Positions 34,175 to 45,578 of a stretch of 64,000 nt of DNA are shown here, piece after piece (position 1 is the first letter of the stretch; each line of letters starts with the position of its first letter). Made by a program: the position numbers and the translations under genes. The stretch covers positions 62,001-126,000 of the forward strand of contig NZ_JAAGWK010000022.1 in assembly GCF_010685995.1 (NCBI RefSeq), written 5' to 3'. The notes under the pieces are model-generated. The model was not told where the DNA came from. It made no database searches and was given only the letters and a program-made list of their open reading frames with translations. Source of the DNA: Goekera deserti (GTDB taxonomy: Bacteria > Actinomycetota > Actinomycetes > Mycobacteriales > Geodermatophilaceae).

Positions 34175-34417
34175 TCAGCGTTCGGCGGGCGCGTCGACCA
34201 GCCGGCTGAGCCGGTGGTGACCGGCCGGCCGCGGCGCCGACACCCACAGGCACAGCTCGGGGTCGGCCTCGAACAGCGGACCCTCCAGCCACCGGCCGTC
34301 CCGGCTGAAGCGGCCGCACCGCCGGCCCATGGTCACCCGCACGGTGCCGCCCTCGTCCGGGGAGTACAGCGCGCGGGGGTTCAGCGGGTGCCGGATCCCA
34401 CCGGTCGGCTGGGTCAT
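34175..34417 (-). CDS. Small Rieske-linked protein, copy 1
   Basis: An 80-residue protein overlapping the stop of the upstream Rieske oxygenase gene by four bases (ATGA). It is clearly related to the 81-residue protein at 35964-36209, which overlaps the other Rieske gene of this divergent pair. Shared residues: IRH, RA-x-Y, V-x-V-T, GRF-x-RDG-x-W-x2-G, and ADPELC-x-W. It has no membrane segment, no signal peptide and a single Cys. A small subunit, assembly factor or substrate adaptor for this oxygenase subgroup are all possible. I do not know the family. Confidence 0.75.
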   Translation of the reverse strand: MTQPTGGIRHPLNPRALYSPDEGGTVRVTMGRRCGRFSRDGRWLEGPLFEADPELCLWVSAPRPAGHHRLSRLVDAPAER

Positions 34418-35793
34418 GCCCGCTCCCGGGCGGCGGGCCGCTCCACCCAGTCGGTGAGCAGGTCGTGGCGCCAGCTGATCACGTCCTCCTGGAAGTCGGA
34501 GGTGATCAGGTGCGAGCGCCGGGTGGCCTGCAGCCCGCGCTGCACCGCCTCCATGTTGAAGCAGTCCTGCTCCATCACCAGGGCCAGGGTCTGCAGCTCG
34601 GTGGCCTCGGTCCACGGGTCGTCGAGCCCCAGCCGGCGCACCGGCGCGGGCGGGGGCCGCTCGCCGCGGAAGGGCGTCAGGAACATGACCTCGAAGATGC
34701 ACCGGTCGTGCCGGTCGCCGTCGGGCCGGAACCGGTAGACGATCCGGTTGAACGCCCCCCAGGGGTGCAGGTTGGGGAAGACGGCGTAGTTCCAGTGGTC
34801 GACGAACTCCGCGTCGGAGACGCCGTCCACCTCGTCGCCGAGCACCGCCCGCCAGCGTTCCCGGGCCGCGGTGGCCATGCTGTCGCGCGCGGTGGTGCGC
34901 TGCTCGAACGGGATGGGCAGGTCCTCGCCCTCGCGCACGTCCAGCATCCGGGCGAGGATGTCCCGCTCGGTGGGCTCGACCGGGATCTCCTCGATCGGGG
35001 TGCCCGACGGGCTGATCTGCCGCGCCCACGTGCCGTAGACGTCGACGGCGCTGTTCGCGTCGCCGACGTAGGGCGCCGACTGCGGGTGGGTGGCGCCCAG
35101 GTGCAGGCCCTCGTCGAACGCCTCCTGCGCCACCTTCCAGTTGCAGCGCACCTGCTTGGCCACGTGCGCCTGCACGTACCGGTGCTCCAGGTCCCAGCCG
35201 CGGAAGTGCTCGGGCAGCCCGCCGAGGAAGTCCGCCAGCGGCTCGGCGTCCGGGTCGGGGTTGAGGAAGACGAACCCGCCCCAGGTGCCCACGGCCGCCT
35301 CGGGCAGCCGCCACGCGTCCCGGTCGGCCTCGATCTCCGGGAACTCCCGGCTCCCGGGCATGTGCCGCAGCGTGCCGTCCAGCTTCCAGGTGAAGCCGTG
35401 GAACGAGCAGCGGAACTCGCTGCACCGGCCGTCGTCGTCCTTCAGCGCGCGGCCCCGGTGCAGGCAGGCGTTGACGTAGGCGCGGATGGACCCGTCCCGG
35501 GTGCGGGTCACCAGGTAGGAGTCGCCGGCGATGTCGTAGACCACGTAGCTGCCCACCTCGGGCAGGTGCTCCTCCCGGCAGGCCATCTGCCACACCCGGC
35601 GCCACAGGTGACGCCGCTCGGCCTCGTGCCAGGCGCGGCTGGTGTAGCGCTCCACCGGCACGTGCTGCGTGCGGGCGGTGTAGGGGTGCCGGCGGCGCAG
35701 GTGCTCGGCCGGCGGGTGCTCGTCCTCGCCGACCAGGTCGTACCAGCTCAGGCCGGCCGTGCGCGTCCTGCCGGGCACCTCGGAGATCGTCAC
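34414..35793 (-). CDS. Rieske non-haem iron oxygenase, alpha subunit (1)
   Basis: A 459-residue Rieske oxygenase. The 2Fe-2S motif is C-x-H ... C-x2-H (NACLHRGRALKDDDGRC then CSFHGFTW) near residues 110-130. The mononuclear iron site is NWKVAQEAFDEGLHLGATH, with Glu in place of the usual bridging Asp, as in carnitine monooxygenase CntA, and the third ligand is likely Asp in MEQDCFN. It hydroxylates or demethylates a substrate with O2 and an external reductase, none of which is encoded beside it. ATG 35793 starts the minus-strand operon. It is a paralogue of the divergent Rieske at 36206. Confidence 0.92.
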   Translation of the reverse strand: MTISEVPGRTRTAGLSWYDLVGEDEHPPAEHLRRRHPYTARTQHVPVERYTSRAWHEAERRHLWRRVWQMACREEHLPEVGSYVVYDIAGDSYLVTRTRDGSIRAYVNACLHRGRALKDDDGRCSEFRCSFHGFTWKLDGTLRHMPGSREFPEIEADRDAWRLPEAAVGTWGGFVFLNPDPDAEPLADFLGGLPEHFRGWDLEHRYVQAHVAKQVRCNWKVAQEAFDEGLHLGATHPQSAPYVGDANSAVDVYGTWARQISPSGTPIEEIPVEPTERDILARMLDVREGEDLPIPFEQRTTARDSMATAARERWRAVLGDEVDGVSDAEFVDHWNYAVFPNLHPWGAFNRIVYRFRPDGDRHDRCIFEVMFLTPFRGERPPPAPVRRLGLDDPWTEATELQTLALVMEQDCFNMEAVQRGLQATRRSHLITSDFQEDVISWRHDLLTDWVERPAARERA

Positions 35794-35811
35794 GGTCGGC
35801 TCCCTGGGCGT

Positions 35812-35823
35812 GAGTAACTTGAG
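35812..35823. promoter_or_regulatory. Second-family motif, GAGTAACTTGAG
   Basis: The reverse complement, CTCAAGTTACTC, matches the core seen before many genes from 35.8 to 53.4 kb (TCAAGNAAC). It lies 19 bases upstream of the Rieske 1 start, in a spot suited to repression. Confidence 0.45.
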
Positions 35824-35903
35824 GGCAACCGTACAAAGTGCCGGGCCCGGTTGTCGACGTCGGATCGTGTCCGGGGCCTCCCCGGTGGCGCGGTCGAGTA
35901 CAT

Positions 35904-35925
35904 ACTGGTCACGGACAGCAGAAAG
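35904..35925. promoter_or_regulatory. Second-family motif before small protein copy 2
   Basis: ACTG, eight bases, then CAGCAGAAAG fits the pattern CTG-N8-NTCAAGNAAC loosely. It lies about 40 bases before the small protein start at 35964, so both arms of the 170-base divergent region carry a copy. Confidence 0.35.
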
Positions 35926-35963
35926 TGCGCGGCCCGTGCCGCTGCCGGCCCCGGGGAGGGTGG

Positions 35964-36209
35964 ATGCGCAAGATCAGGCACGCGCTCAGCCGTGCGGTCT
36001 ACGAGTGGGCACCCGACGACCACGGGCCGGTGCTGGTCACCGACCGCGAGGGCCGGCAGGGCCGGTTCGACCGGGACGGCGGCTGGGTGGCCGGCGAGGT
36101 GCGCCGGGCCGACCCCGAGCTGTGCCGCTGGATCGTCAGCGGTGGCCGGGAGCCGGGTGGCCCGGGCAGCCGCAGCCGCCGCTTCGAGACCGAGGAGACG
36201 TTCTCGTGA
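35964..36209 (+). CDS. Small Rieske-linked protein, copy 2
   Basis: An 81-residue protein (starts MRKIRHALSRAVYEW) that overlaps the following Rieske gene by four bases (GTGA). It shares the IRH, RA-x-Y, GRF-x-RDG-x-W and ADPELC-x-W residues with the protein at 34175-34417. In copy 1 the gene follows its oxygenase; here it precedes it. The order is swapped but the pairing is kept, which argues for a functional link. ATG 35964 has GGAGGG upstream. The C-terminus is Gly/Arg/Ser-rich and less conserved. Function unknown. Confidence 0.78.
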   Translation: MRKIRHALSRAVYEWAPDDHGPVLVTDREGRQGRFDRDGGWVAGEVRRADPELCRWIVSGGREPGGPGSRSRRFETEETFS

Positions 36210-37582
36210 CCGCCGAGCCCGACGGCCGCCCCCGCACCGGCTTCCTGGGCCGGGGGCCCAGCTACCAGGACCTGCTGGACCGGGACAGCAAGCCGGTGCC
36301 GGCACTGCTGCGCCGCTCCGAGCCCGGGTACTTCGGCGAGCAGGACGTGCCGGTCGAGCGGTACCTCGACCGCGCCTGGCACGAGCGGGAGAAGGAGCAC
36401 CTGTGGTCGCGGGTCTGGCAGTTCGCCTGCCGCGAGGAGCTGCTCGCCGAGGTGGGGGACACCCAGGTCTACGACATCGTGGACAAGAGCTACCTGCTGG
36501 TGCGCGCCGCGCCGGGGGCCGGGGGCATCCGCGGCTACGTCAACGCGTGCCTGCACCGCGGCCGGACGCTGCGCGACGGGCCCGGGCGGGTCGAGGAGCT
36601 GGAGTGCGCCTTCCACGGCTTCTGCTGGTCGCTGGGCGGCCGGCTCAAGCGGGTGCCCAGCGCCTGGGACTTCCCGCAGGTGCGCCCGGACGCCTTCACG
36701 CTGCCCGAGGTGGCGGTGGGCACGTGGGGCGGGTTCGTGTTCCTCAACCCCGACCCGGACTGCGCGCCGCTGGCGGACTTCCTCGGTGACCTGGACGCGC
36801 TGTTCGAGCGCTGGCCGCTGACCGAGCGGTACACCCGCGTGCACCTGTCGAAGGTGATCCGGACCAACTGGAAGGTCGCGCAGGAGGCCTTCATGGAGTC
36901 CTACCACGTGATCACCACGCACCCGCAGCTGCTCCCGGGCTTCGGTGACGCCAACTCCCAGTACGACGTCTTCGGCAACGTCTCCCGCGCCATCTCACCG
37001 CGCGGGGTGCCCAGCCCCTACCTGCCGTGGGACCCGACCGAGCAGGAGCGGCTGGACTCCCAGGTCGACCAGCGGATGGACGACCCCCCGGGCCTCGAGG
37101 TGCCGGACGGCTGGACGGCGCGCCAGGCGCTGGCCCGGTCGGCCCGGCGCTCCCTGCGCCCGGTCATCGGCGAGCGGGCCGACGAGCTGTCGGACGCCGA
37201 GCTGGTCGACAGCCACTTCCTCACCGTGTTCCCGAACATGCACCCGTGGGGTGGCTACAACCAGATCACCTACCGCTGGCGACCCGACGGCGACGACCAC
37301 GAGCGCTGCATCATGGACGTGCTGCTGCTCGCCCCGTTCGCCGGTGAGCGGCCGCCGCCGGCACGGGAACGCCGGCTCGGCCCGGACGAGCCGTGGCGCA
37401 GCGCAGTGGGGGAGCTGGGGTCGCTGGCCCGCGTCTTCGACCAGGACGAGTTCAACCTGGAGGCGGTGCAGAAGGGCCTGCGGGCCAGCCGGAAGCCGGG
37501 GCTGTCGTTCGCCGTCTACCAGGAGAGCAAGATCCGGCACTTCCACGACCTGTACGACCGGTGGGTGGGCGACGACCGCTGA
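36206..37582 (+). CDS. Rieske non-haem iron oxygenase, alpha subunit (2)
   Basis: A 458-residue Rieske oxygenase, paralogous to the one at 34414-35793. The cluster motif is NACLHRGRTLRDGPGRV followed by CAFHGFCW. The iron site is NWKVAQEAFMESYHVITTH (bridging Glu, two His), with Asp in FDQDEFN as the likely third ligand. Both carry ERYxxRAWHExE near the N-terminus and an NPDPD..PLADFL segment. Substrate unknown; a reductase must come from elsewhere. GTG 36206 overlaps the small protein gene, so the two should be made in step. Confidence 0.92.
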   Translation: MTAEPDGRPRTGFLGRGPSYQDLLDRDSKPVPALLRRSEPGYFGEQDVPVERYLDRAWHEREKEHLWSRVWQFACREELLAEVGDTQVYDIVDKSYLLVRAAPGAGGIRGYVNACLHRGRTLRDGPGRVEELECAFHGFCWSLGGRLKRVPSAWDFPQVRPDAFTLPEVAVGTWGGFVFLNPDPDCAPLADFLGDLDALFERWPLTERYTRVHLSKVIRTNWKVAQEAFMESYHVITTHPQLLPGFGDANSQYDVFGNVSRAISPRGVPSPYLPWDPTEQERLDSQVDQRMDDPPGLEVPDGWTARQALARSARRSLRPVIGERADELSDAELVDSHFLTVFPNMHPWGGYNQITYRWRPDGDDHERCIMDVLLLAPFAGERPPPARERRLGPDEPWRSAVGELGSLARVFDQDEFNLEAVQKGLRASRKPGLSFAVYQESKIRHFHDLYDRWVGDDR

Positions 37583-37605
37583 GTTTCTTGACGGGGTCAC
37601 CAGTA
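37581..37605. promoter_or_regulatory. Second-family motif before the SDR at 37685
   Basis: GAGTTTCTTGAC, then CGGGGTCACCAGTATC. The reverse complement gives GTCAAGAAACTC, nearly identical to sites at 47905 and 52289. It overlaps the Rieske 2 stop codon and lies 80-100 bases before the SDR gene. Confidence 0.5.
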
Positions 37606-37684
37606 TCTGCTTGCGTGGGCGGGTGACCACCCGGGCCTGCGCCCGTGCGTGGTGAGCCGACCGTCCACCCCACCCGGAGGTCCC

Positions 37685-38437
37685 GTGCGCTTCTCGGACA
37701 AGGTCCTGTTCGCCACCGGCGGCGGGTCCGGCATCGCGGCCGCGGTGGCCCGCCGCTTCACCGCCGAGGGTGGTCGGGTCGCCGTCGCCGACCTGGACGG
37801 CGACCGGGCCCGGGCGGTCGCGGCGGAGCTGGACGGAGCGGTCGGGCTGGCCTGCGACGTCGCCGACGAGGAGTCGGTCCGCGCCGCGCTCGCCGCGGCC
37901 GAGCAGCAGCTGGGTGGGATCGACGCCGTGCTCAGCGCCGCCGGTCACGCCGAGTTCGGGCCGATCGAGCAGTGGTCGCTGGAGCGCTGGAACCGGATGA
38001 TGCTGGTGCACGCCGGCGGCACCTTCCTGGTCTGCAAGCACGCACTGCCGTTGCTGCGGCGCCGCGGTGGCGGGTCCATCGTCACCGTCGCGTCGGTCGC
38101 CGCGCTGGTCGCCCAGCGCGACAACGCGCCCTACGGCGCGGCCAAGGCCGCCGTGCTCGGCTTCACCCGCCAGCTGGCCCTGGAGGTCGGGCCGCAGGTG
38201 CGGGTGAACGCGCTGGCCCCGGGGCGCACCCGCTCGGGGATGACCGAGCCGATCATCCTCGCCCGCGGGGACGGCGACCTGGAGCGCGGCTCGGTGGCCT
38301 TCGGTGCCGGCACCATCCAGAGGCGGGTCGCCGAGCCCGACGAGCAGGCCGCCGCCGCGTGCTTCCTGCTCTCCGACGACGCCGGCTTCGTGACCGGTGC
38401 GACGCTGGTCGTCGACGGCGGCGAGACGGTGGTCTGA
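37685..38437 (+). CDS. Short-chain dehydrogenase/reductase
   Basis: A 250-residue classical SDR. The NAD(P) site is TGGGSGIAAAVA, the usual NNAG is SAAG here, Ser lies in VASVAAL, and the catalytic pair is Tyr150/Lys154 (YGAAK). The C-terminal VDGGETVV is typical. It is probably an alcohol or dihydrodiol dehydrogenase acting after the adjacent Rieske oxygenase; that order is inferred from position. GTG 37685 has CGGAGGTCCC upstream, better than GTG 37649. Confidence 0.88.
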   Translation: MRFSDKVLFATGGGSGIAAAVARRFTAEGGRVAVADLDGDRARAVAAELDGAVGLACDVADEESVRAALAAAEQQLGGIDAVLSAAGHAEFGPIEQWSLERWNRMMLVHAGGTFLVCKHALPLLRRRGGGSIVTVASVAALVAQRDNAPYGAAKAAVLGFTRQLALEVGPQVRVNALAPGRTRSGMTEPIILARGDGDLERGSVAFGAGTIQRRVAEPDEQAAAACFLLSDDAGFVTGATLVVDGGETVV

Positions 38438-38475
38438 CGGTGCCGGGCCGTCCGTGCCGGCGGGTGCCGGGGAGG

Positions 38476-39153
38476 TCAGTAGGTCAGCAGCCCCGGCTCG
38501 GCGCCGGTCAGGTGGTCACGCTCGTTGAGGCTGTGCAGTGCCCGGCGGGCACCCAGCCGGCGCACCCGGCTGACCGAGGTGTGCGCGGGCATGAAGAACA
38601 TGTCCTCGGCGACCCCGAGCAGGTGGGCGAGGTAGGCGTTGACCACCCCGCCGTGGCAGACCACCACCAGGTTCGAGCCGGGGTGCAGCGCGAGCAGGCC
38701 CTCGATGGTGGACACCACCCGCTGGCGCAGCTCGGCGCTGCCCTCGCCGAAGGGCACCAGGTCCCAGCGGCGCTCCAGCGGGAACCGGGCGCGCACGCCG
38801 GCCCAGAACGGCTCCGGCAGGGCGTCGCCGGGGGAGGTGCCGTCGGGCAGGTCGCGGAAGACCTCCACCTCGCGCAGGTCCTCGTGCACCTCGGGCGAGA
38901 GGCCGTGGTGGCGCGCGACCTGCTCGGCGGTCTCCCGGGCGCGGCTCAGGTGGCTGGTGGCCACCAGGTCGACCGGCTGGGCTGCCAGTGCCTGCCCCAC
39001 CAGCTCGGCCTGGCGCCGGCCCACCGCCGACAGCGGCGGGTCCACCCACTCGGCCGGCAGGAACACCGGCGAGGTCGGGACCTGCTGCTGCCCGTGCCGG
39101 ACCAGGGTGAGCTCGGTGCCGTCGGGCTGGGAGAGCAGGAAGGTGTCGTGCAT
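38476..39153 (-). CDS. Histidine phosphatase family protein
   Basis: About 225 residues from ATG 39153. The phosphohistidine motif is LVRHGQQQ near the N-terminus, with Arg in SHLSRARETAEQVA and the second His in VVVCHGGVVNAYLAHLLG. These are all marks of the phosphoglycerate-mutase-like histidine phosphatase fold. The frame extends upstream to GTG 39240 through a Pro/Ala-rich stretch, so the N-terminus could be 29 residues longer. The substrate is not predictable. It is convergent with the SDR. Confidence 0.85.
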   Translation of the reverse strand: MHDTFLLSQPDGTELTLVRHGQQQVPTSPVFLPAEWVDPPLSAVGRRQAELVGQALAAQPVDLVATSHLSRARETAEQVARHHGLSPEVHEDLREVEVFRDLPDGTSPGDALPEPFWAGVRARFPLERRWDLVPFGEGSAELRQRVVSTIEGLLALHPGSNLVVVCHGGVVNAYLAHLLGVAEDMFFMPAHTSVSRVRRLGARRALHSLNERDHLTGAEPGLLTY

Positions 39154-39278
39154 CGAGAACGGCGGAGGTGCCGGCGCGGGCGGCCGGCGGGCCGGCGAGG
39201 GTGTCGCCGGGGACGCGGGCACCGGGTGCGCGGAGGTCACCCGGCGGACGGTAGCGGACGCGGCCGAGGGTGCAGGTC

Positions 39279-39719
39279 GTGAGCGGGTGCGGCGCCGAGG
39301 ACGAGCTCGCCGTGCGCGACCTGGTCGCCCGGTACTGCGACGCGGTGTCCCGCCGCGACCCGGTCGCCTGGGCCGGGACCTGGACCGACGACGCGGTGTG
39401 GGACCTGGGCGGCGGGCGGGTCGTGCACGGCCGGGCCGCCGTCGTCGAGCTGTGGACCTCGGCCCTGGAGCGCTACCCGTGGGTCGCCCAGCTGGCCCCC
39501 ACCGGCACCGTGCAGCTCGACGGCGGGACCGCGACCGGGTCGTGGTGGGTGCTGGAGCTCAACCACCGGGCCGACGGCACCGGCGCGCTGCACCTGGGCC
39601 ACTACGACGACGTCTACCGCCGCACCGACGCGGGCTGGCGGTTCGCCGCGCGCCGGCACTCGATGGTCTACCGCGGGCCGCTGGACCCCGGCACCGTCGT
39701 GCCGCTGCCGCCCCGCTGA
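39279..39719 (+). CDS. SnoaL-like / NTF2-fold protein
   Basis: A 146-residue NTF2-fold protein: VRDLVARYCDAVSRRDPVAWAGTWTDDAVWDLGGG, then GTATGSWWVLELNHR, HLGHYDDVYRRTDAGWRFAARRHSM. The YDDVYRRTDAGW segment is typical of the SnoaL-like group found in ring-hydroxylation and polyketide pathways. GTG 39279 or GTG 39270 may start it. It precedes the PEP-utilizing-like gene by 131 bases that contain a strong palindrome. Confidence 0.8.
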   Translation: MSGCGAEDELAVRDLVARYCDAVSRRDPVAWAGTWTDDAVWDLGGGRVVHGRAAVVELWTSALERYPWVAQLAPTGTVQLDGGTATGSWWVLELNHRADGTGALHLGHYDDVYRRTDAGWRFAARRHSMVYRGPLDPGTVVPLPPR

Positions 39720-39745
39720 CCGGTCGACCGGCCCGCCGCCGCTGA

Positions 39746-39766
39746 AACTAGTGACAGTCACAAGTT
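39746..39766. promoter_or_regulatory. 21-bp palindrome AACTNGTGAC-N-GTCACNAGTT
   Basis: AACTAGTGAC A GTCACAAGTT is a dyad with 10-base arms that differ only at the fifth base. The right half (CACAAGTTAG) aligns with the second-family motif. It lies 85 bases before the PEP-utilizing-like gene and may be the fullest form of that operator. Confidence 0.6.
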
Positions 39767-39850
39767 AGTGCCTCTAGAGTTCCGGCCACCCGGCGTCGTG
39801 AGCCGGGTCACAGCGGGTCCTCCCGCTCCGAGCCAGGAAGGACCTCGCCG

Positions 39851-41572
39851 ATGGCCGAGCACGGCTGGTTGATCGACACCGTCCCGAGTCAGCAGTTCCC
39901 GGTCTACACGCGGCTCAACGCCAACGACGTGCTGCCCGACCCGATCACCCCGCTGGGTGCCAGCTTCTGCTGGATCCCGCACATCATCCCGGGCTGGGCG
40001 GCCGGCTACGCCGCGCTGGACGCCTTCACCCCCTCCGAGCTCGCCCAGGAGGAGATGGCCCCGGTGGCCGGCTTCTTCTACGGCTACCTCTACATCAACC
40101 AGTCCAACGTGCGGGTCGTCGGCATCCGGGCCGGCATCGGCTGGCGGGCCATCGACGCGGCGTTCTTCAGCGCCGACTCGCCCCCGCACGACGAGCGCCC
40201 CGACGACGTCAACGCCGAGCTCAGCGCCCGGATGGCCGCCCGCACCCAGTGGGCGCTGACCACCACCACGTTCCCCGAGGTGGAGGAGGAGCGGCAGATC
40301 GCCGAGCGGGTGCGGGTGGCCCGGCCCGACCTGGCCACGCTGTCCCCGGCCGCCCTGGTGATGTACGCCCGCTCCCTGATGCCGCTGGAGCGGCTGTGCT
40401 GGCGCAGCGAGACCATCGCCAGCAACCAGGCGGCCACCGGCCCCGCGGTCCTCGCCCAGCTCCTCGGTGAGGCCGACGCCTCCCTGGTGGTCCAGGTGAT
40501 CGGGCAGGCCGGCGAGGTGGACTCCGCCGCCCCCTCGTTCGCGCTGTGGGACCTCTCCCGCGTGGTGCGCGCCGACCCGTCGCTGACCGCGACGTTCGAC
40601 GGCGGCGTCGACGGGCTGCTGGGCCGGCTGGAGGCCGGGCACGCCGACTTCGCCTCCCAGTTCCACCGTTTCCTGCGCGACTTCGGCTACCGCGGCCCCA
40701 GCGAGTGGGACCTGGGGGCCGACTCGTGGGAGACCCGCCCGGAGCTCGCGCTGGGCCTGGTGGACCGGCTGCGCCAGCTGGACGACCAGGCCTCGCCCGG
40801 CTCGCGGCAGGGGGAGCAGGACCGGCAGCGCGCCGAGGCGACCGCCAAGGCGTTCGCCGTCCTGGGGGAGAGCGTCGAGGCCCGGCAGACCTTCGAGCTC
40901 GCCGTCGCCTCGGCCCGGCGCTTCGGCGCGTGGCGGGAGCGGGCCAAGACCAACTGCATCAAGGTCATGCACGAGGCGCGGATGGCGTTGACCGAGCTCG
41001 CCCGGCGGCTGCACGCCGAGGGCCACCTGGCCTCCCCGCAGCAGCTGTTCATGGCCACCGACGAGGAGCTCGACGTCCTCATCGCCGAGCCGCAGGCGCT
41101 GACCGAGCGGCTGGCGGAGCGGGAGCGGGAGTGGCACCGCCTCGCCGGCCTGGACATCCCGACGTTCCTGGACTCCCGCGCGGGCGTGCCAGCGCTGGCC
41201 GACATCCCGCGGCGGGAGCAGGCCGGGGTCCAGGTCGCCCGGGCGGGCGACGTGCTGCAGGGCGGGCCGGCCTCGGCCGGGGTCGCCCGCGGCCGGGCGC
41301 GCATCGTGCGGGACACGGCCAGCATCTCGGAGTTCCAGCCGGGCGAGGTGCTGGTGGCGCCGCAGACCGACCCGTCCTGGACGCCGCTGTTCATGGTGGC
41401 CAGCGCCGTCGTGGTGGACGTCGGCGCGATGGGCAGCCACGCGATGATCGTCAGCCGCGAGCTGGGCATCCCGTGCGCCGCCGGCGTCACCGGCGCCACG
41501 CGGCGCATCCCCGACGGGGCCGAGGTGGAGGTCGACGGCTCCACCGGCCGGGTGACGGTGCTCAGCGTCTGA
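39851..41572 (+). CDS. PEP-utilizing-enzyme mobile-domain protein without ATP-grasp domain
   Basis: A 573-residue protein. The C-terminal 90 residues are a PEP-utilizing phosphohistidine domain: GPASAGVARGRARIV, EVLVAPQTDPSWTPLF, and the His in GSHAMIVSRELGIPCAAGV (His530). Residues 1-470 are mostly helical and resemble the substrate-binding middle part of rifampin phosphotransferase and phenylphosphate-synthase-type proteins. The ATP-grasp domain that normally phosphorylates the His is absent. It may work with a separate ATP-binding subunit, but none is in the window. ATG 39851 follows AGGAAGG. Confidence 0.85.
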   Translation: MAEHGWLIDTVPSQQFPVYTRLNANDVLPDPITPLGASFCWIPHIIPGWAAGYAALDAFTPSELAQEEMAPVAGFFYGYLYINQSNVRVVGIRAGIGWRAIDAAFFSADSPPHDERPDDVNAELSARMAARTQWALTTTTFPEVEEERQIAERVRVARPDLATLSPAALVMYARSLMPLERLCWRSETIASNQAATGPAVLAQLLGEADASLVVQVIGQAGEVDSAAPSFALWDLSRVVRADPSLTATFDGGVDGLLGRLEAGHADFASQFHRFLRDFGYRGPSEWDLGADSWETRPELALGLVDRLRQLDDQASPGSRQGEQDRQRAEATAKAFAVLGESVEARQTFELAVASARRFGAWRERAKTNCIKVMHEARMALTELARRLHAEGHLASPQQLFMATDEELDVLIAEPQALTERLAEREREWHRLAGLDIPTFLDSRAGVPALADIPRREQAGVQVARAGDVLQGGPASAGVARGRARIVRDTASISEFQPGEVLVAPQTDPSWTPLFMVASAVVVDVGAMGSHAMIVSRELGIPCAAGVTGATRRIPDGAEVEVDGSTGRVTVLSV

Positions 41573-41579
41573 CCGCCGG

Positions 41580-41609
41580 CCGCCGGCGCCCCCGCGGGGG
41601 TGCCGGCGG
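41580..41609. terminator. Convergent hairpin terminator
   Basis: CCGCCGGC (41580-41587) pairs with GCCGGCGG (41602-41609), and CCCCC (41589-41593) pairs inside with GGGGG (41596-41600). It sits in the 43 bases between the convergent PEP-utilizing-like and SnoaL-like genes. Confidence 0.75.
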
Positions 41610-41615
41610 CACCGC

Positions 41616-42059
41616 TCACCCGCGGCGGACGACGTCCCGGTTGCCCCGGTGCCACGACCGGTGCAGCGTGCGGTGCGCGATCCGCCAGCCGGCCGGGGTG
41701 CGCACCAGCTCGTCGTGGTAGCGGGCGCCGATCTCGTAGTGCTCGCCCCCCGGCTCGCCCAGGCGCACGTGCTGGGCGAGCAGGTAGCAGTCCGCGGTCG
41801 CCGCGTCCCCGTCGACGCCCACCACCACGTTGGCCAGCAGGTGCTGGGTGGCGTCCAGGTCGCCGATGGTGCCGCGTACCAGCGCGACGATCTCCGGCAC
41901 GCCCCGCGGCGTCCCGAGGGGGCCGTAGTCGCAGCGGGCGTCGGCGGTGAAGACCTGCTCCAGCAGGTCCCACTCCCGGGAGTCCAGGGCCGTGGCGTAG
42001 CGGGCCAGCAGCTCGCTGATCTCGGCGCGGTCCAGCAGCAGCCGTACGGGATCGGACAC
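41616..42059 (-). CDS. SnoaL-like / NTF2-fold protein
   Basis: A 147-residue NTF2-fold protein: LLLDRAEISELLARYATALDSREWDLLEQVFTADARCDYG, then GARYHDELVRTPAGWRIAHRTLHRSWHRG. The RYHDELVRTPAGWRIAHR segment resembles the protein at 2983-3453 (RYDDELVRADGGWLIRRR). GTG 42059 is chosen; an upstream extension of the frame is Pro/Gly-rich and overlaps the divergent promoter region. Reaction unknown. Confidence 0.82.
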   Translation of the reverse strand: MSDPVRLLLDRAEISELLARYATALDSREWDLLEQVFTADARCDYGPLGTPRGVPEIVALVRGTIGDLDATQHLLANVVVGVDGDAATADCYLLAQHVRLGEPGGEHYEIGARYHDELVRTPAGWRIAHRTLHRSWHRGNRDVVRRG

Positions 42060-42153
42060 CGGCAGAACGTAGACAGCACCCCCGGACGGCGCAAGGCGTC
42101 CGGCGTCGTACCCGCGCCGCACCGGGTCCGCCCGTGCAGGAGGAGAGACCACC

Positions 42154-42747
42154 GTGACCCACCAGCCGACCGGCCCCGCTCCGACCAGCCCCGCCCCGAC
42201 CGGCCCCGCCCTGGGCGGCGGGGACCCCATGCGCGGGGACGCCGCCCGGGACTGGGAGGACGTCCGCGCCTACCCCCTCGGGCAGCAACAGGAGGCCGAG
42301 CTGCTCGAGCGGCAGACCGAGTGCACCTTCATCTGGCTGGACCGCGACGGGCACCCGCGCGGCGTGGTCATGAACTACCTGGTCGCCGACTCGCGGTTCT
42401 GGCTCACCGCCACGGCCGGCCGGCCGCGGGTGGCTGCCGTGCGCCGCGACCCGCGGGTCAGCATCGCCATCAGCTCCCGGGGGTCGGGCATCGCGGTGAG
42501 CCGGTCGCTGACCCGCACCGGCACCTGCGTCGTGCACGACGACGACGCGACGCGAGCGTGGTTCTACCCGGCCCTGGCCGCCCGCCTGCGCCCGGGCGAC
42601 GAGGCGGCGGCCGCGTCCTTCGCCGCCCACCTGGACTCGCCCGGACGGGTCGTGCTGGAGGTCGTGCCCGCCGGCCGGATCGGCTTCGACGGTGCGGCGA
42701 TGTGGTCCGCGGCGCCGTCGGCCGCGCCCACCCGCCCGGCGTCGTGA
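42154..42747 (+). CDS. Pyridoxamine 5'-phosphate oxidase-like flavin/F420-binding protein
   Basis: A 197-residue split-barrel protein. The barrel starts at about residue 45: ECTFIWLDRDGHPRGVVMNYLVADSRFWLTATAGRPRVAAVRRDPRVSIAIS. These are the strands and R-x-A-x-x-R-x-D-P-R-V motif of FMN- or F420-binding PNPOx-like proteins. The first 30 residues are a Pro/Gly-rich leader. GTG 42154 has AGGAGGAGAG upstream. Members reduce a range of small molecules; the role here is not clear. Confidence 0.83.
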   Translation: MTHQPTGPAPTSPAPTGPALGGGDPMRGDAARDWEDVRAYPLGQQQEAELLERQTECTFIWLDRDGHPRGVVMNYLVADSRFWLTATAGRPRVAAVRRDPRVSIAISSRGSGIAVSRSLTRTGTCVVHDDDATRAWFYPALAARLRPGDEAAAASFAAHLDSPGRVVLEVVPAGRIGFDGAAMWSAAPSAAPTRPAS

Positions 42748-42755
42748 GCGCGACC

Positions 42756-42780
42756 TAGTTACTTGACACGGTCTCCTCTT
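42756..42780. promoter_or_regulatory. Second-family motif before Rieske 3
   Basis: TAGTTACTTGACACGGTCTC. The reverse complement has GTCAAGTAACTA, matching the family core. TTGACA within it could also be a -35 box, about 95 bases before the Rieske 3 start. Confidence 0.5.
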
Positions 42781-42860
42781 TGGGGCACTGTCGGGCCGCC
42801 GGAGGTGTGCTCGGTCACACGCAGCCGGCGCGCCTGTCCCGCCCCCGATCGGAGGGTCTC

Positions 42861-44012
42861 GTGGTCTTCGTCCCCACCCGGGGGGACCTGCCTCCCCGGC
42901 ACGGTCCCGACGTCCCGCTGCTGCCCGCGGGCGCGGAGCCCGCCACGGTGCCGGCGTCGGTCTACCGGGACCCCGAGCGCTACGAGCGGGAGCGCACCGA
43001 CGTGCTGGCCCGCACCTGGCAGATCGTCTGCCGCTCCTCGCAGATCCCCGCCGCCGGTGACCACCAGGTGTGGGAGGGGCAGGGCGAGACGATCGTGGTC
43101 ACCCGCCGTCGCGACGGTGGGGTGACCGGCTTCCACAACGTGTGCCAGCACCGCGGCGCGCGGATCGTGAAGGAGTCCGGCTGCGGTGCCCGGCGCTTCC
43201 GCTGCCGCTGGCACAACTGGACCTACGACCTGGAGGGCGCCGTGCTCGGCGTCCCCGACCGGGAGGACTTCGCGCCCGAGCAGCTCGACGGGCTGGCCGC
43301 CCCGCCGGTCGAGTGCGCGGAGTGGGGTGGCTGGGTGTGGGTGGTGCTGGCCGGTCCCGGCGTCGCGCCGCCGCTGACCGAGTGGCTGGGCCCCGAGCTG
43401 ACCGGCGACCTCGGTGCCTACCGCATGGAGGACATGCTGCTGATCGACAAGCTCGAGTTCGACCTGCCGGTCAACTGGAAGGTCGTCATCGACGGCTTCA
43501 ACGAGAACTACCACGCCCCGGCGCTGCACCGGGTGCCCGCGCAGGACGTCAAGGACGGCCGGGAGAGCACGTTCTTCCACTGGGGCCCGCACGGGATGAT
43601 GGTCGTGCCCTACAAGGGCGTGCTGCCCCGGCTCAAGGAGAGCCGCGACCACCAGGGCCTGGCCATCTGCCACTACACGGTCTTCCCGACCGCGGTGTTC
43701 AACAACAACCCCAACCACCTGCAGCTCTTCCGCGCCGTGCCGCTGGCGGTCGACCGCACCCGGTTCGAGACCTGGGAGCTGCAGTACGACCCGCAGGGCG
43801 ACGAGGACTACACCGCCGAGGTGGACGCGCACTGGGAGCGGCTCAAGCAGGTCGTGGCCGAGGACGTCGAGATCTACGGCGAGGTGGCGGCCACCCGCAC
43901 CTCCTCGGCCTACACGCGCAACGTGCTCAACGACCACGAGTGCAAGATCACCCACTTCCACCGCACCGTGCAGCGGATGCTCGACGCCGGCGAGGCGCGC
44001 CGTGAGCAGTGA
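42861..44012 (+). CDS. Rieske non-haem iron oxygenase, alpha subunit (3)
   Basis: A 383-residue Rieske oxygenase of a different subgroup from the 34-37 kb pair. The cluster motif is CQHRGARIVKESGCG with CRWHNWTY. The iron site is NWKVVIDGFNENYHAPALH, again with a bridging Glu, and Asp in VAEDVEIYGE is the likely third ligand. Many relatives act on betaines, carnitine or small aromatics. GTG 42861 has GGAGGG five bases upstream; frame upstream of it lies in the promoter. It overlaps the antibiotic-biosynthesis-monooxygenase-like gene by 11 bases. Confidence 0.92.
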   Translation: MVFVPTRGDLPPRHGPDVPLLPAGAEPATVPASVYRDPERYERERTDVLARTWQIVCRSSQIPAAGDHQVWEGQGETIVVTRRRDGGVTGFHNVCQHRGARIVKESGCGARRFRCRWHNWTYDLEGAVLGVPDREDFAPEQLDGLAAPPVECAEWGGWVWVVLAGPGVAPPLTEWLGPELTGDLGAYRMEDMLLIDKLEFDLPVNWKVVIDGFNENYHAPALHRVPAQDVKDGRESTFFHWGPHGMMVVPYKGVLPRLKESRDHQGLAICHYTVFPTAVFNNNPNHLQLFRAVPLAVDRTRFETWELQYDPQGDEDYTAEVDAHWERLKQVVAEDVEIYGEVAATRTSSAYTRNVLNDHECKITHFHRTVQRMLDAGEARREQ

Positions 44013-44358
44013 CCCGGCCGTGATCGTCGCCGGCTGGATGGACTTCGCCCCGGCCGATCGGGACGCCGCGCTGGCCGCCTTCGCCGAGGTGGTGGCCGAG
44101 AGCCGGCGCGAGCCCGGCTGCGTCGACTACGCGTTCTCGCCCGACGCCCTCGTGCCGGGCCGGGTCCGGGTGTTCGAGCACTGGAGCGGCGAGGCGGCGC
44201 TGGCCGCGCACCTGGCCCTGCCGCACGTCGCCCGGCTGCGTGCCTCGATCGCCGGCCTGACCCGCACGGGCCGGCAGCTGGCCCGGCACACCGTCGTGGC
44301 CTCGGCACCCATGGGCGGCGCCGCCGCCCCCCGCAGCACCGAGGAGTCCCCGGCATGA
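44002..44358 (+). CDS. Antibiotic biosynthesis monooxygenase (ABM) domain protein
   Basis: A 118-residue ferredoxin-like-fold protein of the ABM/YgiN group: VIVAGWMDFAPADRDAALAAFAEVVAESRREPGCVDYAF, then RVRVFEHWSGEAALAAHLALPHVARL. The E-x-G-C-x-x-Y and F-E-x-W blocks are standard. Relatives are cofactor-free quinol monooxygenases or structural dimers. It lies between two Rieske genes, overlapping both ends (GTG 44002; ATGA at 44355), so it probably acts on the same substrate series. Confidence 0.85.
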   Translation: MSSDPAVIVAGWMDFAPADRDAALAAFAEVVAESRREPGCVDYAFSPDALVPGRVRVFEHWSGEAALAAHLALPHVARLRASIAGLTRTGRQLARHTVVASAPMGGAAAPRSTEESPA

Positions 44359-45578
44359 CCACCGCACCCGAGTACGCCGCCGGCGTCGCGTTCGGCGACG
44401 CGACCGTGCGCGCGGACGCCTTCGACGTCATGGCCCGGCTGGTCGAGCACCACCGGCACACCACGACCGACACGGTCGCCGACCAGTGGCGGGAGCCGGT
44501 GCGCAACTACACCGACCCCGAGGTATGGGAGCGCGAGGTGCAGGCGGTGCACCGCACCCGCCCGCTGCCGGTCGCGCTGTCCTGCGAGCTGCCGACGCCG
44601 GGCTCGTACAAGGCGGTCGAGGTGGTCGGCACGCCGCTGGTGCTCACCCGCGATCGCGGCGGCGAGCTCCGCGCCATGGTCAACTCCTGCCGGCACCGCG
44701 GTGGCGCGATCCTCCCGGACGGGACCGGCCAGACCCGCCGGCTCACCTGCCCCTACCACTCCTGGTCCTACGACCTGGCCGGGTGCCTGACCGGGGTCTA
44801 CGGCGAGAAGACCTTCGGCCCGGTCGACCGCAGCGAGCTCGGCCTGCGGCAGCTCCCGGTGGCCGAGCGCGCCGGCATCGTGTTCGTGTGCCTGACCCCG
44901 GGCGCGGAGCTCGACCTCGACGCCTGGATCGACCCGGAGCTGTTCACGTTGCTCGACGCCCTCGAGCTGGCCGGCTGCCACCACTGGTCGACCCGGACGC
45001 TGGACGGCCCGAACTGGAAGCTGGTCGTCGACGGCTACCTGGAGGGCTACCACTTCGCCTCGCTGCACCGGACCACGGTCTTCCGCACCAACCTGTCGAA
45101 CATGGCCGCGTTCGACTCCTGGGGTCCGCACCAGCGCAACTCCTTCGCGCTGCGGCCCATCGCCCAGGCCGTGGACGCCCCGCCGGAGACCTGGGACCCG
45201 CGCACCTGCGTGGGGGCGATCTACTGGCTGTACCCGGGCCTGGCCATCGCCGGGGGCTGGCGCGAGCAGGTCGCGGTGTCCTTCGTCTTCCCGGGGCGCA
45301 CCTGGGACAGCTCCCGCACCGAGCAGCACATCCTGCTGCGCCGGGAACCCCTGGACGACGAGGAGCGCAAGGGCGCCGACCACACCCGGGACTGGTTCCA
45401 CGACGTGGTGCTCGACGAGGACTACGAGGCCGGCTTCGGCATCCAGCGGGGGCTGGCGGCCATGGCCGACCAGGACTTCGTCTTCGGGCGCAACGAGCCC
45501 GGCGTCCAGCACTTCCACCGCACCCTCGGCGAGCACCTCGCGAGCGGGGGCGGTGAGCGGGCCGTCAGAGGCTGGTGA
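44355..45578 (+). CDS. Rieske non-haem iron oxygenase, alpha subunit (4)
   Basis: A 407-residue Rieske oxygenase. The cluster motif is NSCRHRGGAILPDGTG then CPYHSWSYDL; the iron site is NWKLVVDGYLEGYHFASLH with a bridging Glu, and Asp in VLDEDYEAG likely completes the triad. The N-terminal 45 residues precede the Rieske domain and have no clear match. ATG 44355 overlaps the ABM gene. The 3' end overlaps the convergent TetR gene by 14 bases. With Rieske 3 and the ABM protein it forms a three-gene unit. Confidence 0.92.
   Translation: MTTAPEYAAGVAFGDATVRADAFDVMARLVEHHRHTTTDTVADQWREPVRNYTDPEVWEREVQAVHRTRPLPVALSCELPTPGSYKAVEVVGTPLVLTRDRGGELRAMVNSCRHRGGAILPDGTGQTRRLTCPYHSWSYDLAGCLTGVYGEKTFGPVDRSELGLRQLPVAERAGIVFVCLTPGAELDLDAWIDPELFTLLDALELAGCHHWSTRTLDGPNWKLVVDGYLEGYHFASLHRTTVFRTNLSNMAAFDSWGPHQRNSFALRPIAQAVDAPPETWDPRTCVGAIYWLYPGLAIAGGWREQVAVSFVFPGRTWDSSRTEQHILLRREPLDDEERKGADHTRDWFHDVVLDEDYEAGFGIQRGLAAMADQDFVFGRNEPGVQHFHRTLGEHLASGGGERAVRGW

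Follow-up and report, generated by a model that had tools for sequence, protein, structure and literature searches.

A clade of Rieske oxygenases that most likely carries a previously undescribed small subunit or domain

Introduction

Rieske oxygenases are iron enzymes that act on recalcitrant carbon compounds. Only four assemblies of Rieske oxygenases, alpha3, alpha3beta3, alpha3alpha'3 and alpha3alpha3, are listed in a 2025 review (PMC12445004). Here, we analyze two gene pairs in a 64,000-nucleotide stretch of the Goekera deserti genome (contig NZ_JAAGWK010000022.1, positions 62,001 to 126,000; hereafter the window), each consisting of a Rieske oxygenase alpha-subunit gene and a gene for a protein of 80 or 81 residues. 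Sequence comparison indicates that they most likely belong to a clade of Rieske oxygenases with a previously undescribed small subunit or domain. Among open-access papers, to which the literature search was limited, we found none describing this domain or such a small or third subunit.

Three described systems invite comparison. The beta subunits of alpha3beta3 enzymes (NDO, CDO, BPDO, and HcaF) are likewise non-catalytic second subunits encoded beside the alpha gene, with probable roles in assembly and selectivity (PMC12445004). Unlike them, the small domain described here is 58 to 80 residues long, is predicted to fold into five strands and a helix, has no match to the beta family, and can also be part of the alpha chain, as an insertion, or of a short-chain dehydrogenase/reductase (SDR), as a fusion. 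Beta subunits form a Pfam family of their own and are larger than the small domain. Among solved structures, the one closest to the oxygenase part is that of the carnitine monooxygenase CntA, an alpha-only trimer (PMC7948474). Its published description mentions no small partner, its PDB sequence is shorter, at 391 residues, and it shares only about 21% identity. In cumene dioxygenase, two loops that follow the histidine ligands (G236-N264 and F278-G290) cap the active site, and their mutation alters activity and selectivity (PMC7889853). The region in question here likewise follows the histidine ligands and, by this comparison, would cap the active site. The cumene dioxygenase cap consists of two loops, 29 and 13 residues long, of its own alpha chain, whereas the region considered here contains an entire additional domain or, where that domain is a separate protein, presumably has it docked on its surface.

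Results

The first pair lies on the reverse strand, with the 80-residue P0001 (34175..34417, -; profile i-Evalue 4.9e-25) encoded downstream of its oxygenase P0003 (34414..35793, -). The second lies on the forward strand, with the 81-residue P0002 (35964..36209, +; i-Evalue 3.5e-24) upstream of its oxygenase P0004 (36206..37582, +). The two pairs are transcribed divergently from either side of a 170-bp region (35794..35963), where both promoters presumably reside. Within each pair, the genes overlap by four bases, ATGA for P0003/P0001 and GTGA for P0002/P0004. P0001 and P0002 are homologues (53% identity across 55 residues, E 7e-14 in a single comparison), and P0003 and P0004 are 52% identical over nearly their full lengths. 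An earlier note, made by reading this DNA alone, had described the positions of the small genes, their homology, the overlaps with paralogous oxygenase genes, and the opposite gene orders on opposite strands; all of these are borne out by the coordinates and alignments.

Both oxygenases match the Pfam families Rieske (PF00355) and Ring_hydroxyl_A (PF00848) above cut-off. They contain the CxH...CxxH cluster ligands and the HxxxxH metal-binding histidines, and in an alignment of related Rieske proteins (A4), C109, H111, C129, H132, H231, and H236 are invariant columns. As for the carboxylate ligand, D391 and D396, both nearly invariant, are the probable candidates. Neither protein reaches the cut-off of any NCBIfam equivalog model (GbcA, HcaE, and others), the best score being 84 bits where 670 are required.

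To find further members, we searched 84,980 genomes with an alignment of P0003 and P0004, because a protein of 60 residues makes a poor search query, and kept 79 loci. The small domain was sought in these loci in six frames by an iterated profile. It lies within one gene of, or inside, the Rieske gene in 75 of the 75 subgroup loci with enough flanking sequence, a set picked for likeness to partner-bearing Rieskes that accordingly shows completeness within the clade only. The remaining 4 of the 79 lack the small domain, and all are cut at a contig edge.

We also searched in reverse, using only an 80-row alignment of the small domain (A3) against the whole genomes of 396 members of the phylum, 248 of an order that is presumably acidimicrobial, and 36 holding loci from the Rieske-led search. 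Although A3 itself derives from Rieske neighborhoods and some of the genomes are shared with the Rieske-led search, of the 103 distinct homologues recovered, 100 are part of a subgroup Rieske gene or adjoin one. The phylum and order searches alone, excluding the window, place 55 of 57 there. The possibility raised in the earlier note, that homologues sit mostly away from Rieske genes, is not what we found. Of the three exceptions, L168 has masked flanks and L213 lies on a short contig among pathway-like neighbors. The third, L167 (1992-2306, -), comes from a MAG-like assembly (MAG, metagenome-assembled genome) and joins the small domain to an enoyl-CoA-hydratase-like N-terminal fragment, with no Rieske gene within about 2 kb; this reading frame probably represents a chimera or the remains of a gene in decay. 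The carrier clade spans Actinomycetota, Myxococcota, Chloroflexota, Pseudomonadota, and candidate phyla, with both soil and marine groups represented.

Four ARRANGEMENTS of the small domain were found. It can be encoded on its own, either immediately downstream of the Rieske gene (in most cases no more than 50 bp away) or immediately upstream; it can form the N terminus of an SDR dehydrogenase whose gene directly precedes the Rieske gene; or it can be inserted within the Rieske catalytic domain itself. The SDR fusion occurs in 14 distinct loci (L089, L070, L060, L067, L069, L073, L075, L076, L078, L080, L082, L083, L086, and L091), mostly from Myxococcota and "Deltaproteobacteria" MAGs. All are in frame, with linkers of about 25 to 50 residues rich in Ser, Pro, Gly, and Ala.

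The insertion was seen in 28 Rieske proteins before redundancy removal; inserted members include a Novosphingobium protein at L110. It follows the metal-ligand histidines, lying about 50 residues past the second. The distance from this histidine to the conserved SDAE motif is 163 to 183 residues in inserted members versus 63 to 117 residues otherwise. Because the median in non-inserted members is about 103 with or without a partner, the segment lengths indicate that the insertion is a clean addition of a domain of about 62 residues and not an altered lid. By analogy with cumene dioxygenase, the insertion site is where other Rieske oxygenases carry their cap loops.

A tree of 117 Rieskes, computed after the insert columns had been taken out of the alignment, groups the carriers into a single clade of 102 members (SH-aLRT 97, a branch support value), barring two rows of uncertain place and one labeling artifact. 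No sampled member inside this clade lacks the small domain. Mapping five arrangement labels onto the tree requires 8 changes, compared with a mean of 63 for shuffled labels, and both the insertion and the SDR fusion have single origins. L164 and L165 carry an upstream small domain and are placed beyond the main clade, a position that is weakly supported. The "downstream" label of L035_3125 was rejected as an artifact, being that of a distant Rieske followed by the small gene of its neighbor.

P0003 belongs to a clade whose 41 sampled members all have the small gene downstream, and P0004 to a separate group with the small gene upstream. The same divergent double pair is present in a Frankiales MAG (L032) and in a second genome (G256). 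Each of the window small proteins is 76% identical to its L032 counterpart versus 60% to the other. Because of these identities and the separate tree groups, we conclude from the sequences that the pairs were inherited as pairs and that the change of order is old. By the same comparison, the two pairs in the window are not a local duplication plus flip, a correction of emphasis to the earlier note.

We used AlphaFold2 to predict the structures of the separate P0002 and of a natural inserted Rieske, L094. P0002 is modeled as five strands and one helix, with a mean predicted local distance difference test score (pLDDT) of 77, rising to 82-91 in the ordered part, and a disordered tail. L094 is modeled with a pLDDT of 91.3 and a predicted template modeling score of 0.90, its inserted domain (residues 286-343) at a pLDDT of about 94, and this domain has the same order of strands and helix as P0002. 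The fold used alignment A4 without the separate small proteins, which MAFFT had aligned to the wrong domain. The solved structures nearest to the L094 model are CntA (Z 28.9, 330 residues aligned, identity of about 21%) and other Rieske oxygenases.

The small domain alone has no convincing fold match by Foldseek or VIA. The best Foldseek hit has an E value of 0.36 and is not a polo-box entry. VIA gave a weak resemblance of the model to the polo-box, with a Z of at best 4.7, below the level that the tool itself counts as meaningful, and identity mostly below 10%; we attach no functional implication to it.

Sequence searches likewise returned no described family, in keeping with the earlier reading of this DNA. 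The conserved core spans about 58 residues with near-invariant H, Y, F, G, D, and W. Neither Pfam nor NCBIfam gave a match above cut-off for the small protein, and scattered hits were each confined to 1-5 of the 80 A3 members. Among PDB sequences the best E value was 0.47, for the AIG2-like protein 2kl2, a match that covers 20 residues and was taken as chance. The beta-subunit family (Pfam Ring_hydroxyl_B, NTF2-like) matched none of the 80 members at E values up to 1. A Rieske-type ferredoxin motif was also sought; no CxH pair is present, and there is one common Cys only (76% of 144 sequences). Marginal matches from the initial two-sequence genome searches (E 0.002-0.01, unrelated long frames) were not used. 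L016 (E 1.9e-4; E 4e-8 in the first iterative hidden Markov model search) is an unrelated sequence with no Rieske nearby and was left out of A3.

The window holds two other Rieske genes, at 42759-44009 and 44355-45575. They are distant from the subgroup profile (E ~1e-41 and 1e-28) and, as had been noted from the sequence, no small-domain partner lies beside either. These four genes are the only Rieske-profile matches in the whole genome, and P0001 and P0002 are its only clear small-domain matches. All four Rieske matches fall within about 11 kb (window positions 34414-45575), and the small-domain family has no clear match in the other searched genomes of the same taxonomic family. For these two reasons, the Rieske cluster is probably a catabolic island acquired by transfer. 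The nearest relatives are Frankiales and Aeromicrobium MAGs (L032 and L064).

Immediately downstream of P0004 is an SDR dehydrogenase (37649..38437, +; Pfam adh_short_C2). The SDR family occurs beside the subgroup Rieske in 41 of 78 loci, and elsewhere an SDR, not necessarily an orthologue of this one, is fused to the small domain. Other frequent neighbors resemble, by sequence, P450 (19 of 78 loci) and 2-oxoacid dehydrogenase component families. These neighbors fit a catabolic pathway. No redox-partner family was recognized among the most frequent neighbors of subgroup Rieskes.

Between 37649 and 42230, the pairs are adjoined by the SDR, a histidine phosphatase, two SnoaL-like proteins, and a phosphoenolpyruvate-utilizing-enzyme-like protein. 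On plasmid pRZP2 of Rhodococcus sp. ZPP (L215), a culturable relative whose corresponding pair is WP_208963840 and WP_208963839, a homologous Rieske is flanked by an SDR, a histidine phosphatase, an NTF2-like protein, and a pyruvate phosphate dikinase. The similarity of these flanking genes suggests that the two gene sets share a pathway. In another plasmid, pTML1 of Pseudoalteromonas (NC_015708; L217), a distant Rieske of the wider group has no small domain; it adjoins a gene of the phytanoyl-CoA dioxygenase family, upstream of a nonribosomal peptide synthetase gene.

Discussion

The earlier note had suggested that this Rieske subgroup has a small subunit, assembly factor, or regulator dedicated to it, and the 100/103 association together with the absence of a family match largely supports this. 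The insertion goes beyond that proposal: it speaks more for a structural subunit than for a transcriptional regulator or a factor that acts transiently. Because the small domain is inserted in the alpha chain in one sub-clade, we argue that it is part of the mature oxygenase. We consider it likely that one Rieske clade has the small protein as its dedicated subunit, bound to the alpha catalytic domain at the active-site cap. The cap is proposed because the insert lies about 50 residues past the second histidine ligand, matching the cap-loop region of cumene dioxygenase. The separate small protein would occupy the position that the insert has in the fused chain, and there it may stabilize or close the cap and so help to set substrate access and specificity. 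In the mostly myxococcal group, the flexible linker to the SDR would tether the enzyme of the next step to the oxygenase.

Several observations weigh against this interpretation. That the insert would lie over the active site is deduced from its position in the chain and from published cap loops. Co-divergence speaks for a subunit, the pairwise distances of the small domain and the Rieske being correlated (r 0.63 overall against a permutation maximum of 0.09, and 0.74-0.84 within each arrangement), but this is partly due to the shared descent of linked genes. The Rieskes of Nostoc and of Novosphingobium pNL2 and PP1Y, just outside the clade, have no small domain nearby, and the same is true of a second, out-of-clade Rieske in several acidimicrobial loci. 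Since the lids of these relatives are similarly long although the domain is missing, the Rieske fold in general does not require it.

A different role, which we regard as unlikely, is that of a redox- or partner-docking adaptor, providing a surface for a ferredoxin, a reductase, or the next enzyme (for example, the SDR) and having no part in substrate access. The flexible-linker SDR fusion in 14 loci fits a domain that holds another enzyme on the oxygenase, and the beta subunits of alpha3beta3 enzymes aid redox-partner interactions (PMC12445004). However, no third protein is attached in the other arrangements, the most frequent neighbors include no recognized redox-partner family, and with about one conserved Cys the domain itself is no iron-sulfur electron carrier. 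Somewhat less probable still is a maturation or assembly factor that aids folding of the alpha subunit, metal loading, or trimer assembly and is dispensable later. Dedicated chaperones also show strict one-to-one pairing and overlaps in the style of translational coupling, but a domain that is permanent in the alpha chain in one clade and SDR-fused in another is awkward for a transient factor. A regulator or chance operon neighbor with no physical role in the enzyme is very improbable: the gene is small, conserved, and apparently co-transcribed, as the four-base overlaps indicate, but it has no DNA-binding family match, its 100/103 association holds over several phyla in different gene orders, and insertion in the enzyme chain nearly refutes the idea.

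Returning to a subunit at the active-site cap, the SDR fusion suggests that the domain may also hold the downstream dehydrogenase on the oxygenase. A broader proposal, whose chances we put at about even, is a new quaternary class, in which a trimer of alpha chains bears a small cap subunit that can be detached and has no relation to beta subunits. In the course of evolution this subunit would have stayed a separate protein, shifted to one side of the gene or the other, become part of the cap, or been joined to the next enzyme, the same module setting substrate access and docking the dehydrogenase. Should the small domain prove to be a stoichiometric subunit, it would constitute a further class of Rieske assembly beyond the four reviewed. 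Expressing such an alpha gene alone may then give a dead or unstable enzyme, and the natural inserted versions would be ready-made fusions for structure work. The cap at which the subunit is proposed to act is a region that engineers have already modified to alter selectivity.

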